Shown: positions 6,829 to 28,108 of the stretch, in pieces
Position numbering within the stretch: position 1 is the stretch's first letter
Layout of the letters: every line of letters begins with the position of its first letter
From: a virus
Strand: one strand, 5' to 3'
Virus record (IMG/VR): IMGVR_UViG_3300042555_000631
Location: 1-29,704 of that record
DNA length: 29,704 nucleotides
Notes under the pieces: generated by a model
What the model was told of the DNA's origin: nothing
Seen by the model: only the letters and a program-made list of their open reading frames with translations
Database searches by the model: none
Program-made: the position numbers and the translations under genes

Positions 6829-6848
6829 AGGGAGTGTTTCCACTCCCT
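6829..6848 (-). terminator. GAAA-tetraloop hairpin downstream of the SSB-like gene
   Basis: Read on the minus strand: AGGGAGTG, loop GAAA, CACTCCCT, then TTAAATTT. The 8-bp stem is perfect and the loop is a GNRA tetraloop. The T-tract is weak, so it may act as an attenuator or RNA 3'-end stabiliser rather than a full stop, leaving some transcription into the nuclease genes. A near-identical hairpin follows the major capsid gene (27547-27565). Confidence 0.65.
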
Positions 6849-6865
6849 ATTAATCAAAACTAAAA

Positions 6866-7141
6866 CTAAAATGGCAAATCTTCAATTACTGCATTATTTA
6901 CAGGCGATGTTGCTGCTGCTAATGGCTGCTTAATATTGCCGATGTATACTTTTTTTTCTCCTGCTTCTCTTTCTGCTTTAGATTGGCTTAATTGAATGCT
7001 TCCAATATTACCATATTGGTCTAATTCATCATTTACCCAAACATTGATGTTCAGATACTTTTTACCATTCTTTTCTGAAGTGGTGATTTTTTCTTTTGGG
7101 ATATCTGTTAAACAGATTGATCCGTTATACAATTTACTCAT
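6866..7141 (-). CDS. SSB-like single-stranded DNA-binding protein
   Basis: 91 residues. It starts MSKLYNGSICLTDIPKEKI and runs through strands KYLNINVWVND and VYIGNIKQ, consistent with a short OB-like domain, then a low-complexity linker (AAATSPVNNA) and the terminal I-E-D-L-P-F. The last residues match the SSB-type acidic tip (D-D-I/L-P-F) that recruits partner proteins. At 91 residues it is shorter than bacterial SSB (about 110-180). Its leader (7142-7174) is a near-copy of the leader of the ERF gene. Role in coating ssDNA during replication and annealing is inferred from the tip, the fold pattern and the neighbours. Confidence 0.65.
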   Translation of the reverse strand: MSKLYNGSICLTDIPKEKITTSEKNGKKYLNINVWVNDELDQYGNIGSIQLSQSKAEREAGEKKVYIGNIKQPLAAATSPVNNAVIEDLPF

Positions 7142-7174
7142 GTTATTGCAGGATATAGGGAGCCTGTGCCTTTA
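7142..7174 (-). promoter_or_regulatory. Duplicated leader hairpin element, copy B (before the SSB-like gene)
   Basis: The whole spacer from the stop codon (TAA, 7172-7174) to the ATG at 7141 is 33 nt and 26 of the 33 match the spacer before the ERF gene (8688-8720). On the minus-strand RNA it reads CAGG (7166-7163), loop CTCCCTATAT, CCTG (7152-7149). The loop and flanks (TAAAGGCA before, CA-TAAC-ATG after) are the same as in copy A. The stem differs but still pairs. This pattern indicates an RNA element near the start codon, possibly a translational operator. Confidence 0.6.
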
Positions 7175-7456
7175 AAAGTTTTCCTTTATAAACTCAGCCA
7201 ATAAATCTGCTTTGTTTACTTTAGGTATTGTATGAAATATTTCTGCTTGTTTGTCTCTATCAAGTTTGCCTTCATACTTTCGATATGGTGGCAATTCAAT
7301 TGTTCGCAGCGAAGATAGTAATATTGGCTTTACAAATTCGCAAATACTACCAAAAAATGATTTTGTTTTTTGGTATTCTTTATGAAGCATCTGCCTGTAT
7401 AATTGTGCAACTCTGTAATGTTCTGCAATCATCCATTCTTTAAATTCTGTTCTCAT
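7172..7456 (-). CDS. Unknown protein of the recombination operon (94 aa)
   Basis: 94 residues starting MRTEFKEWMIAEHYRVAQLY, mostly helical in the first half, with a Ser/Leu stretch (KPILLSSLRTIELPPY) and a charged end (KADLLAEFIKENF). No membrane segment, no metal-binding pattern. It overlaps the preceding gene by 4 bases and ends at the start of the duplicated leader element. Family not recognised; function unknown. Confidence 0.65.
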   Translation of the reverse strand: MRTEFKEWMIAEHYRVAQLYRQMLHKEYQKTKSFFGSICEFVKPILLSSLRTIELPPYRKYEGKLDRDKQAEIFHTIPKVNKADLLAEFIKENF

Positions 7457-7677
7457 AGTTTTTCTATTTCTTGTTTAACTTGGCGATACCATTGATGATC
7501 ATTATAATCAATCCTTACTTCATTGATTATTTCATCAACTAATTTTAAAGCGCACATTTTATAATATTTGTTATTCGGGCCTGTTATTTCCATTCTATCC
7601 AATGTCCAATTGTAAACAGTATGATTTCCAAATTTATAAAACTCTACCAACTCTTTTGCTTTTTCTTTTGCTGTCAT
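7453..7677 (-). CDS. Small protein, first of two tandem paralogues (74 aa)
   Basis: 74 residues: MTAKEKAKELVEFYK, then KMCALKLVDEIINEV, then WYRQVKQEIEKL. It shares the order [T-x-K-x-K-A-K-x-L-V], [C/A-x-x-x-x-x-I-x-E-I/L] and [W-x-x-V-K-x-E-I] with the upstream neighbour at 7674-7859, so the two are probably an old duplication. Proteins with this pattern are common and often multicopy in Bacteroidota phages, function unknown. ATGA overlap with the paralogue, and a further 4-base overlap with the downstream gene. Confidence 0.7.
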   Translation of the reverse strand: MTAKEKAKELVEFYKFGNHTVYNWTLDRMEITGPNNKYYKMCALKLVDEIINEVRIDYNDHQWYRQVKQEIEKL

Positions 7678-7859
7678 AAAAAATTTATTTCGTTTTTAAC
7701 ATTCTGCCAATATTTAAAAGGCAAATCTTCTTCATCAACAACTAATTCTTTAATCTTAATAAGTTCCATGATAATTGCATTAATACAATTGACTGCATAC
7801 TCTTTGCCGAAAATATTTACTAAATACTTTGCTTTTTGTTTTGGTGTTTGATTATCCAT
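7674..7859 (-). CDS. Small protein, second of two tandem paralogues (61 aa)
   Basis: 61 residues: MDNQTPKQKAKYLVNIFGKE, then CINAIIMELIKIKELV, then YWQNVKNEINFL. It resembles the gene at 7453-7677 in its three blocks but lacks a segment of about 12 residues between the first two. Predicted as two or three amphipathic helices. Preceded by a 92-base spacer that holds a long inverted repeat (7878-7945). Function unknown. Confidence 0.7.
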   Translation of the reverse strand: MDNQTPKQKAKYLVNIFGKEYAVNCINAIIMELIKIKELVVDEEDLPFKYWQNVKNEINFL

Positions 7860-7877
7860 TTTTAAGATTTTAAAAAC

Positions 7878-7945
7878 TCCTGCCCTTTTGCCAATTAACT
7901 ACTAACTAACCATCACGTTATTAATGTTTAAGGTTAAGGGCAGGA
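7878..7945 (-). repeat. 10-bp inverted repeat with long loop in an operon spacer
   Basis: TCCTGCCCTT (7878-7887) and AAGGGCAGGA (7936-7945) are perfect inverted copies 48 bases apart, inside the 92-base non-coding spacer 7860-7951. On the minus strand the second arm is followed by GTTTTTAAAA, so it could act as a large-loop terminator or attenuator, or form the closing stem of a small structured RNA. No coding frame was seen in the spacer. Confidence 0.5.
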
Positions 7946-7951
7946 ATAAGG

Positions 7952-8173
7952 TTATGAATTATATTCTTCGTCTAATTTTGCTTTTCTTTTCTGATAGGCT
8001 ATTTCCCTTTCTCTATCTGCATCTGTTATTTCTATTGATAGTATCTCTTGCAATGTAGTCTTTCGATTGAAATCCCAAATTGCTTTACCACTACTTCCAG
8101 AAGTTATTGGTGGAACTATCTCACCATTCCTGTCTATTGGGTAACTATCATTTAACGTATCAAGCGTTCTCAT
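7952..8173 (-). CDS. Unknown protein after ERF (73 aa)
   Basis: 73 residues starting MRTLDTLNDSYPIDRNGEIV and ending in a charged helix (TDADREREIAYQKRKAKLDE). It overlaps the ERF gene by 14 bases, so it is probably translationally coupled to it. The middle is Gly/Ser-rich. A partner or regulator of the annealing protein is possible by position only. Confidence 0.6.
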   Translation of the reverse strand: MRTLDTLNDSYPIDRNGEIVPPITSGSSGKAIWDFNRKTTLQEILSIEITDADREREIAYQKRKAKLDEEYNS

Positions 8174-8687
8174 ATTCTAATGCTTTTAGTTTGAATGATG
8201 CAATTACTTGTTCTGTTTTATCTGCTGCTGATAATTGCTGCCAAATGTTTGTCAATTCTGCTTTGCTTGTTGCTGATGCAATCTTTTGCATTACTGATGT
8301 ATCAGATTTTACAGGTGCTTGTGAATCTGCATCTTTGGTATCATCAATAAGGAACAATCCATTAAGGCAATACTTTCGTGCATATGAACTTGCCGCACCG
8401 GAAACTTGCGAACCATCCATTCCTTTTTTGCTTTCCTCTTCTCTTGCCAATGCTGATACTGTTACAACTCCATCTTCGCTTTTGAATTTTGCAGTTGCTT
8501 TGATATAGAATCTTGTTCCAATGTTTACTACTTCATCTGATATAATTAGTTTGCAATCATACTTGGCAAGTAATGGTTTGACTGCTTCAAGAATATCTTC
8601 ACAATTTCGGTATTTATACTTTCCGAATGAATTGTACTGATTCTTTGGTGCTTTGAGTTCCGATTGGATTTGTGTGAGTTTGTTCAT
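8160..8687 (-). CDS. erf: ERF-family single-strand annealing recombinase
   Basis: 175 residues. The N-terminal domain has the ERF family pattern: helix MNKLTQIQSELKAPKNQY, then FGKYKYRNCEDILEAVKPLL, then strands DCKLIISDEVV and FYIKATAKF, then SQVSGAASSYARKYCLNGLF followed by DDTKDADS. The C-terminal part (residues 125-175) is a linker plus a helical tail (ELTNIWQQLSAAD). ERF proteins anneal complementary ssDNA and help circularise or repair phage genomes. It is encoded with an SSB-like protein and a VRR-NUC nuclease. Its start is preceded by the duplicated hairpin leader. A longer reading is blocked by the upstream stop at 8718. Confidence 0.92.
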   Translation of the reverse strand: MNKLTQIQSELKAPKNQYNSFGKYKYRNCEDILEAVKPLLAKYDCKLIISDEVVNIGTRFYIKATAKFKSEDGVVTVSALAREEESKKGMDGSQVSGAASSYARKYCLNGLFLIDDTKDADSQAPVKSDTSVMQKIASATSKAELTNIWQQLSAADKTEQVIASFKLKALEYENA

Positions 8688-8720
8688 GTTAATGGCTGAT
8701 ATAGGGAGCAGCTGCCTTTA
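8688..8720 (-). promoter_or_regulatory. Duplicated leader hairpin element, copy A (before ERF)
   Basis: Spacer of 33 nt from the stop TAA (8718-8720) to the ERF ATG at 8687. On the minus-strand RNA: GCTG (8712-8709), loop CTCCCTATAT, CAGC (8698-8695). It shares 26 of 33 bases with 7142-7174. Six of the seven differences are three paired changes within the stem, each keeping a Watson-Crick pair; the seventh is a single base in the 3' flank. Conserved loop plus compensatory stem is the signature of an RNA structure recognised by a protein or another RNA. Confidence 0.6.
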
Positions 8721-8810
8721 TTTTTTTATAAATTTATGATAAATAATTGAAACAATAATTATTTCAATAACAAAGGTTATTATATAACCTACAATGAATT
8801 TTAATATCAT
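8718..8810 (-). CDS. Micro membrane peptide (30 aa)
   Basis: A 30-codon frame, MILKFIVGYIITFVIEIIIV then SIIYHKFIKK. It is one hydrophobic helix with a basic C-terminal end, which fits a single-pass inner-membrane peptide. The start overlaps the stop of the DnaA-like gene as ATGA, strong support for translation, and its stop begins the duplicated leader of ERF. Too short for gene finders. Role unknown. Confidence 0.6.
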   Translation of the reverse strand: MILKFIVGYIITFVIEIIIVSIIYHKFIKK

Positions 8811-9172
8811 ATCTGATTATTTAAGGTGTTAAAGTCATACATGAATCCATGCTCTTTGGTTGCAATGTAATCATGTGTTTGTTTCATGTGATGAACTATT
8901 GTTGTGTGATCTGATACCGAAGGATGAAGCATTGCAGCAATATTTGTAGTTGTCAAAGATGTATTCATACGCAAAAAATAAATGATAAATCTTCTGCATG
9001 AAACGTATTCTTTCTTTCTGTTTTTCTTTACCAATTGCTCAAATGATATTCCAAAATGATTGCAACAAATATCTATTATTCTATCTGTCTGCATCTTTTG
9101 AGATAGTTTAAATTCGCCGTCTAAATCTTTTGATTTGCGAAGTCCAGGTATTGCGTATGCGCTATAAATCAT
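8807..9172 (-). CDS. Stand-alone DnaA domain IV-like DNA-binding protein
   Basis: 121 residues. Residues 27-105 look like the C-terminal DNA-binding domain of DnaA: IIDICCNHFGISFEQLVKKN (helix with the usual IxxxVxxxFxIxxxxL spacing), then YVSCRRFIIYFLR, then NIAAMLHPSVSDHTTIVHHM. The S-D-H-T-T-I-V-H-H segment (87-95) matches the DnaA signature (R-D-H-T-T-V-x-H), which reads the CAC part of DnaA boxes. There is no AAA+ ATPase domain and no domain I. It may bind phage origin boxes (see 13619-13804) or compete with host DnaA. It lies between two micro membrane genes with stop/start overlaps on both sides. Confidence 0.8.
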   Translation of the reverse strand: MIYSAYAIPGLRKSKDLDGEFKLSQKMQTDRIIDICCNHFGISFEQLVKKNRKKEYVSCRRFIIYFLRMNTSLTTTNIAAMLHPSVSDHTTIVHHMKQTHDYIATKEHGFMYDFNTLNNQI

Positions 9173-27533: not shown

Positions 27534-27545
27534 ATTTCTTAATAT

Positions 27546-27570
27546 AGGGGAGTAGAAATACTCCCTTTTT
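27546..27570 (+). terminator. GAAA-tetraloop terminator after the major capsid gene
   Basis: Stem GGGAGTA (27548-27554), loop GAAA, TACTCCC (27559-27565), then TTTTT, with A-T and G-T pairs extending the base. It is a strong intrinsic terminator or partial attenuator; downstream tail tube and portal genes may be read through or restarted. Confidence 0.85.
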
Positions 27571-27583
27571 AAAATATAATATT

Positions 27584-28108
27584 ATGCCAGCAGCATGTGC
27601 TATTAGTGCAGGATATACGATAGAATGTAGAGAATCTATCGGTGGTTTACAAGCGGTATTTATCGCTGAATTCGGCAATGTTACAAGTATTGCTGAATCA
27701 AGTGGTTTAGTTACAGGTATAACCAAAGCAACAGGAAAAAGATTCTACAAGTTTGAAGTTCCAAGAGCAGTTGCAAACGCAACATCTAACGGAACAGGTA
27801 GTGAAGAAAATGGCTCATTCTTCTATACTCATCAGGTAGTATTGCCAATCAACAAAAGAGATTCCACAACTGCAAATGTTATTCGTACTTTAGCGAAGAA
27901 CAAGTTAATCGTTGTTACTCTTGACATGGATGGTAACTATCGTATGTATGGAAAAGGTAATGGTTTATTTGTAGCAACAGTTGATAGCGGAAGCGGAACA
28001 GCAGCAGGTGATAGACAAGGCTACAACATTACTTTGACAGGTATTGAAAAAGATGAAATGTTGCAAGTTACAAGTTCAGTTGGTTCAGCATTAGAAACTG
28101 CAGGATAA
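27584..28108 (+). CDS. Probable major tail tube protein (174 aa)
   Basis: 174 residues: CRESIGGLQAVFIAEFGNVT, KATGKRFYKFEVPRAVANAT, SFFYTHQVVLPINKRDSTTA, NVIRTLAKNKLIVVTLDMDG, then YNITLTGIEKDEMLQV. This beta-rich pattern with the FYTHQVVLPI and NKLIVVTLDMDGNYR blocks is typical of Bacteroidota phage structural proteins annotated as tail tube. It follows the major capsid gene behind a terminator and an AATATAATA leader and is followed by a second terminator, as for a single highly expressed gene. A head decoration protein is the alternative. Confidence 0.6.
   Translation: MPAACAISAGYTIECRESIGGLQAVFIAEFGNVTSIAESSGLVTGITKATGKRFYKFEVPRAVANATSNGTGSEENGSFFYTHQVVLPINKRDSTTANVIRTLAKNKLIVVTLDMDGNYRMYGKGNGLFVATVDSGSGTAAGDRQGYNITLTGIEKDEMLQVTSSVGSALETAG

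Follow-up and report, generated by a model that had tools for sequence, protein, structure and literature searches.

The window, i.e. the whole stretch of DNA analysed here, is a 29,704-base IMG/VR virus record. On its minus strand lie a gene for an ERF single-stranded DNA (ssDNA) annealing protein of 175 aa (8160-8687; PF04404, E=1.7e-37) and a gene for a 91-aa protein with the C-terminus ...IEDLPF (6866-7141), which belongs to phrog_24909, a family without assigned function, and is called SSB-like in the following. Near the ERF gene, the same strand encodes at 8807-9172 a protein of 121 aa that carries the C-terminal DNA-binding domain of DnaA (PF08299, E=1.8e-13). The adjacent small ORFs at 7453-7677 and 7674-7859 (minus strand), both assigned to phrog_21441, have the look of a tandem duplication, and a long hairpin CCTGCCC...GGGCAGG followed by T's (7870-7950, minus strand; -26 kcal/mol) between a 73-aa and a 61-aa ORF may serve as a terminator or as a further leader. 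Directly after the SSB-like stop codon, a strong hairpin AGGGAGTG-GAAA-CACTCCCT was found at 6829-6848 (minus strand). Nearly all of the relatives examined have a comparable hairpin behind this gene, and the one in the window probably marks the transcript end. A terminator-like hairpin with the similar TATAGGGGAGTAGAAATACTCCCTTTTT lies on the plus strand at 27543-27570, before the ORF at 27584.

The label SSB-like is based on the C-terminal LP(F/W), which is invariant in the family (most often DLPF) and resembles the tip of SSB, and on the gene neighbours, which are ERF, RecT-like or Sak4-like. The C-terminal tip of SSB binds partner proteins. The protein is a putative ssDNA-binding protein. 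A search for Pfam families gave no match. The first AlphaFold model (mean pLDDT 78) matched no PDB fold and no OB-fold, and the second one matched only viral proteins without names.

The spacers between the upstream stop codons and the two start codons are TAAAGGCAGCTGCTCCCTATATCAGCCATTAAC-ATG for ERF (8720-8688, minus strand) and TAAAGGCACAGGCTCCCTATATCCTGCAATAAC-ATG for the SSB-like gene (7174-7142, minus strand). A previous sequence-only reading of this DNA had described them as equal in length and identical at 26 of 33 positions, with six of the seven differences forming three compensatory pairs. These statements were reproduced: both spacers comprise 33 nt with the upstream TAA stop counted and 30 nt without it, the number of matching positions is 26, and the paired changes are G-C to C-G, C-G to A-U and U-A to G-C. 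The resemblance is not due to chance. When the 33-nt stretches before the 66 ATG ORFs of the window were compared pairwise, this pair was the best with its 26 identities (mean 9.9, next best 22), and the spaced motif matched exactly twice in the window and not at all in 100 dinucleotide shuffles.

While the same reading had assumed a plain 4-bp hairpin, the supposed loop CTCCCTATAT pairs with the 5' flank (AGG:CCU). The strands thus follow each other in the order S1-S2-S1'-S2', which defines an H-type pseudoknot. The weak 4-bp stem had been guessed to need a bound protein or a longer-range pairing, and it is S1, formed by the AGG 5' of the stem and the CCU of the loop, that supplies it. The copy before the SSB-like gene (7142-7171, minus strand) reads AGG-CA-CAGG-CTC-CCT-ATAT-CCTG-CAATAAC with the ATG at 7141 and reaches a covariance model (CM) score of 56.2 bits. 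Its S1 consists of AGG (7169-7171) and CCT (7157-7159, within the former loop) and is backed by S1 covariation in the 36 distinct elements described below, its S2 of CAGG (7163-7166) and CCTG (7149-7152), and a 7-nt spacer CAATAAC (7142-7148) with A at -3 and -6 leads up to the ATG. The copy before ERF (8688-8717, minus strand; 46.4 bits) reads AGG-CA-GCTG-CTC-CCT-ATAT-CAGC-CATTAAC with the ATG at 8687, S1 being formed by AGG (8715-8717) and CCT (8703-8705) and S2 by GCTG (8709-8712) and CAGC (8695-8698).

The layout in relatives was read from the sequences preceding ERF and SSB-like homologues, and 36 distinct elements were compared, almost all of which come from phage contigs of IMG/VR. The element is compact (about 23 nt), stands 6-10 nt before the ATG and follows the pattern S1(3 bp)-NA-S2(4 bp)-C[TC/AA]-S1'-L3(4-5 nt)-S2', with an L1 of 2 nt and an L2 of 3 nt. 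The AA 5' of S1 and an A in L3 are invariant, while L2 varies (CTC, CAA, CAC, AAA). For S1 the variants AGG/CCU, CGG/CCG (L100, L106, L013), ACA/UGU (L093), CCA/UGG (L099), TCA/UGA and CGA/UCG were found, and S2 occurs in seven sequences. Both stems are fully paired in all 36 elements and all 252 pair cells are standard; this complete pairing is not independent evidence, since the rows were selected for pairing of both stems. Double changes occur in six of the seven pairs, and the covariation amounts to 0.552 compared to 0.153 after shuffling (0 of 500) and at most 0.08 with slid partners. The sequence-only reading had proposed further genomes as a check of selection on RNA structure, and these do keep the loop and its flanks with more compensatory stems; both stems are under selection. 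The tree of the SSB-like gene requires 13 changes in S1 and 9 in S2, so that the covariation does not go back to one inherited event. Exchange of the element by recombination may be behind some of the stem changes. The pair below S2 is an A.C mismatch in 31 elements and G.U in five, all five of one lineage, and is replaced as a unit, a swap which is expected for an isosteric wobble in RNA.

Because of this preselection, the least circular evidence comes from the three database scans blind to S1, which are unbiased in this respect. With S2 fixed as CCGG, CTGG or TCGG and S1 left free, S1 was complete in 38 of 48 distinct matches with an ATG 4-12 nt downstream, compared to 3 of 74 without an ATG (Fisher p=8e-19). 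In the reverse scan of the collection, the variable position of S1 and the letters of S2 were left free. Wherever a match preceded the ATG of an SSB-like or ERF gene, S1 and S2 were fully paired, and the remaining matches, mostly one unrelated coding sequence recurring across many phages, plus L134, showed 0-2 of the four S2 pairs. In 1.1 Mb of loci, a strict descriptor matched 37 times with an ATG, and 36 of these matches preceded an SSB-like or ERF gene. In view of these data, a plain 4-bp hairpin or a nested double hairpin has next to no probability. ViennaRNA, which does not predict knots, does fold the SSB-like copy as a nested structure (AGG:CCU within AGG:CCU, -2.6 kcal/mol) and the ERF copy as a 4-bp hairpin. 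However, the nested pairing is impossible in the ERF copy and reaches only 76% of paired cells and a covariation of 0.135 across the family, whereas the crossing S1 pairs are fully kept, and the S1-blind scans already contradict both hairpins. Judged by its pairing pattern, the element is almost certainly a real family of RNA pseudoknots.

For the distribution, 46 whole records were searched with a covariance model containing S2 only. A match was obtained in 44 of them, with one or two strong matches per record. A few extras at E 0.1-1, among which is the only match in L098, probably arose by chance or represent degenerate copies. All strong matches stand on the sense strand and within the recombination cassette, in front of the SSB-like gene, ERF or a second-copy gene, and not at structural genes. 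The claim that the element precedes both ERF and the SSB-like gene holds for the window, but the constant partner is the SSB-like gene, which is preceded by the element in nearly every carrier. A second copy before ERF is confined to the group of the window and L013. Elsewhere, a second copy was found before a ParB-like gene (L182, L183, L195), a 114/122-aa gene (L193, L194, L212) or an 89-aa gene of a Sak4-like cassette (L189). These second-copy genes have the look of modules that were placed between two elements; in L193 and L186, for example, the upstream tRNA tail and the first element are the same. The SSB-like family is the only one general in knot loci, followed by a nuclease (34 of 43) and a RecT-containing cluster (28 of 43), its universality being partly by design, since the loci were gathered mainly via this protein. 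A diverged SSB-like subfamily (MATLINAYITKAKLEQL...; L303, L311, L312, L318, L319, L336, L347) has a replaced N-terminus and the same core, tail and pseudoknot.

Related SSB-like genes of other phages (L218-231 and L240-254), among them a clade with an A-rich leader (L218-230), lack the knot, which is consequently not essential to the SSB-like gene. Among isolated phages the best SSB-like identity was below 60%. The element was also absent from the three isolates read (Polaribacter, Tenacibaculum and Flavobacterium phages) and from all five distant relatives that were the only ones found in bacterial genome contigs. Judging from the named relatives, the carrier phages probably infect Bacteroidota. 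In the window and many carriers the feature upstream of the knot is the stop codon of an ORF and not a tRNA. In RecT-type relatives the knot follows within a few nt of the end of a tRNA-Lys gene of 91-92 nt (L184:1367-1458, L193:1968-2059, L195:1600-1690). Stop-codon readthrough or frameshifting was considered and dropped, since the knot abuts the stop without a spacer, a constant slippery site is missing, and a tRNA instead of an ORF lies upstream in some carriers. Copies within a genome appeared never to be identical; this was seen in the two-copy genomes and is not clearly above chance.

The position next to ssDNA-binding and annealing genes could also be explained by an ssDNA structure or a recombination junction instead of an RNA, a reading that Weinberg et al. 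considered for the STAXI motif (PMC2864571) and that the appearance of second-copy genes as insertions between two elements would suit. However, the constant sense orientation 6-10 nt before an ATG, the small number of copies per record and the exchange of A.C for G.U, which fits RNA, make it very improbable.

The fixed place before the starts points to translation. In Bacteroidia, adenines at -3, -6, -12 and -13 and low structure matter for starts, as cited in PMC9976891. In the leader, the A's at -3 and -6 are retained in the spacer, and -12 and -13 fall within the knot. Since such starts prefer little structure and adenines upstream, a knot at this place should matter and, if held folded, would hinder initiation. 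The element is likely to be a start-codon operator. A Bacteroides-type promoter (TATATTTG) was dismissed as an alternative because the motif fits unrelated chance matches (L004, L100 at 2578) and not the element. A pairing of the loop with AUAGGGAG behind the SSB-like gene (6843-6850) was rejected as well, since this stretch belongs to the terminator-like hairpin and has no loop-matching counterpart in other carriers, e.g. L100.

In T4 and RB69, gp32 represses the mRNA that encodes it through a leader pseudoknot (PMC535899). With this precedent, autogenous repression with co-control of a second gene would be the simplest mechanism. The folded knot would cover the stretch that the Bacteroidia ribosome must bind, so that a protein holding it folded would switch the gene off, and titration of this protein would allow translation. 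While ssDNA is plentiful, the SSB-like protein would sit on the DNA; in excess, it would shut off its own mRNA and that of the second-copy gene. Action on translation, repression and the SSB-like protein as binder are inferred, and autoregulation by the SSB-like protein is about an even matter. Altogether, we give a little better than even chances to the combined reading, in which the H-type pseudoknot is a start-codon translational operator for the SSB-like gene and sometimes for a second cassette gene, here ERF, with the SSB-like protein as the likeliest binder.

The same operator could be bound by another factor, such as a host ribosomal protein, an RNA chaperone or another phage protein, both genes then being set by the infection stage. 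The loop sequence is loose, its variable nucleotides limiting sequence-specific recognition, and the nucleic-acid-binding fold of the SSB-like protein is only putative. A host factor, moreover, requires no co-occurring phage gene, and besides the SSB-like gene none is universal near the element. Nevertheless, the confinement to the SSB cassette and the absence from other operons of the same records speak more for an autogenous loop than for a general factor, and another binder appears rather unlikely. A small downstream protein (MTIHQYIERK...) was discarded as regulator, since its gene is missing from whole knot-bearing clades; its cluster was present in 25 of 43 knot loci and in 0 of 23 loci without a knot.

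The knot could also work without any ligand, as a fixed tuner of translation or as a 5'-end protector. Since tRNA-Lys ends just before S1 in several RecT-type relatives, tRNA 3' processing could leave the knot at the 5' end of the mRNA, and a fixed weak start could be enough to limit the output. We regard this as decidedly unlikely, because the upstream feature in the window and many carriers is the stop codon of an ORF, and a fixed tuner has no need of a 3+4-bp knot maintained by repeated compensatory change.

In a scan of the window against Rfam 15, no family reached or approached its gathering score, the best values in the 121-nt stretch being E 4-10. Together with the literature searches, this agrees with the previous statement that no such element is described in Bacteroidota phages, while T4 gene 32 provides a clear functional precedent elsewhere. 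A small-molecule riboswitch with an H-type pseudoknot would match in size, place and the invariant AA 5' of S1 and A in L3. It is extremely improbable, since L2 and L3 vary, S1 is wholly replaceable, the genes under control are recombination genes and Rfam holds no match.

Compared to known systems, the element resembles the T4/RB69 gene 32 operator as an H-type pseudoknot 5' of the start in the mRNA of a phage ssb gene, which is a putative one here. In both cases the knot persists while the upstream genes differ, and some relatives lack it, RB49 in the case of gene 32 (PMC535899). In T4 about 40 nt with an A/U-rich run separate the knot from the start, whereas here the distance to the ATG is 6-10 nt. 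Since this run of about 40 nt is missing, the element was not filed in the gene 32-type family, though it would work alike. Further differences are its size (about 23 nt, 3+4 bp), the possible copy before a second gene and the lack of sequence homology; the SSB-like protein is unrelated to gp32 as far as the searches reach. The relation to the T4 pseudoknot is best read as analogous, not homologous. A pseudoknot at the start is also found in the E. coli S15 and S4 operators, where the ribosomal protein encoded by the mRNA stabilises the knot at the ribosome-binding site. These operators differ in belonging to cellular genes, in Shine-Dalgarno ribosomes and in size. STAXI likewise comprises pseudoknots near ssb and several other kinds of DNA-handling gene, in the form of 2-3 tandem knots, often with UUCG loops (Weinberg 2010, PMC2864571). 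Here, by contrast, a single knot per gene is fixed to the start codon, with copies before different genes, in phages with named relatives that infect Bacteroidota and in a window region without an Rfam match. The SAS/ESAS of cluster K mycobacteriophages (PMC3203893) are similar as repeated elements tight before starts, with inverted repeats that differ between genomes. The ESAS, however, stand at many genes, each as an imperfect inverted repeat of 17 bp linked to a 13-bp SAS; a pseudoknot is not described for them (PMC3203893), and the 13-bp SAS GGGATAGGAGCCC does not occur in the leader sequence of the window.

The element adds a small, strongly covarying pseudoknot family that Rfam does not contain. 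Its phages probably infect a phylum in which ribosomes ignore Shine-Dalgarno sequences and little is known of translational control. Should the SSB-like protein be the binder, the feedback of T4 gene 32 would have a second example that evolved independently and also covers a recombinase. The wider proposal, which we put forward tentatively and with some doubt, is a new RNA family by which one SSB-like protein sets its own translation and, in trans, that of the recombinase, the dose of the recombination machinery being controlled by the free ssDNA present during infection, on non-Shine-Dalgarno ribosomes and having arisen independently of T4. The size of the knot permits direct structural and mutational tests.

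A variant of the knot, read by eye and lying below the CM threshold, was observed before the SSB-like start codon in L234-L239 (about 2455-2500). It reads TAA-CGT-GC-GCCCG[T/C]-[G/T]-ACG-...-[A/G]CGGGC and comprises a 6-bp S2 and an L2 of 1 nt.
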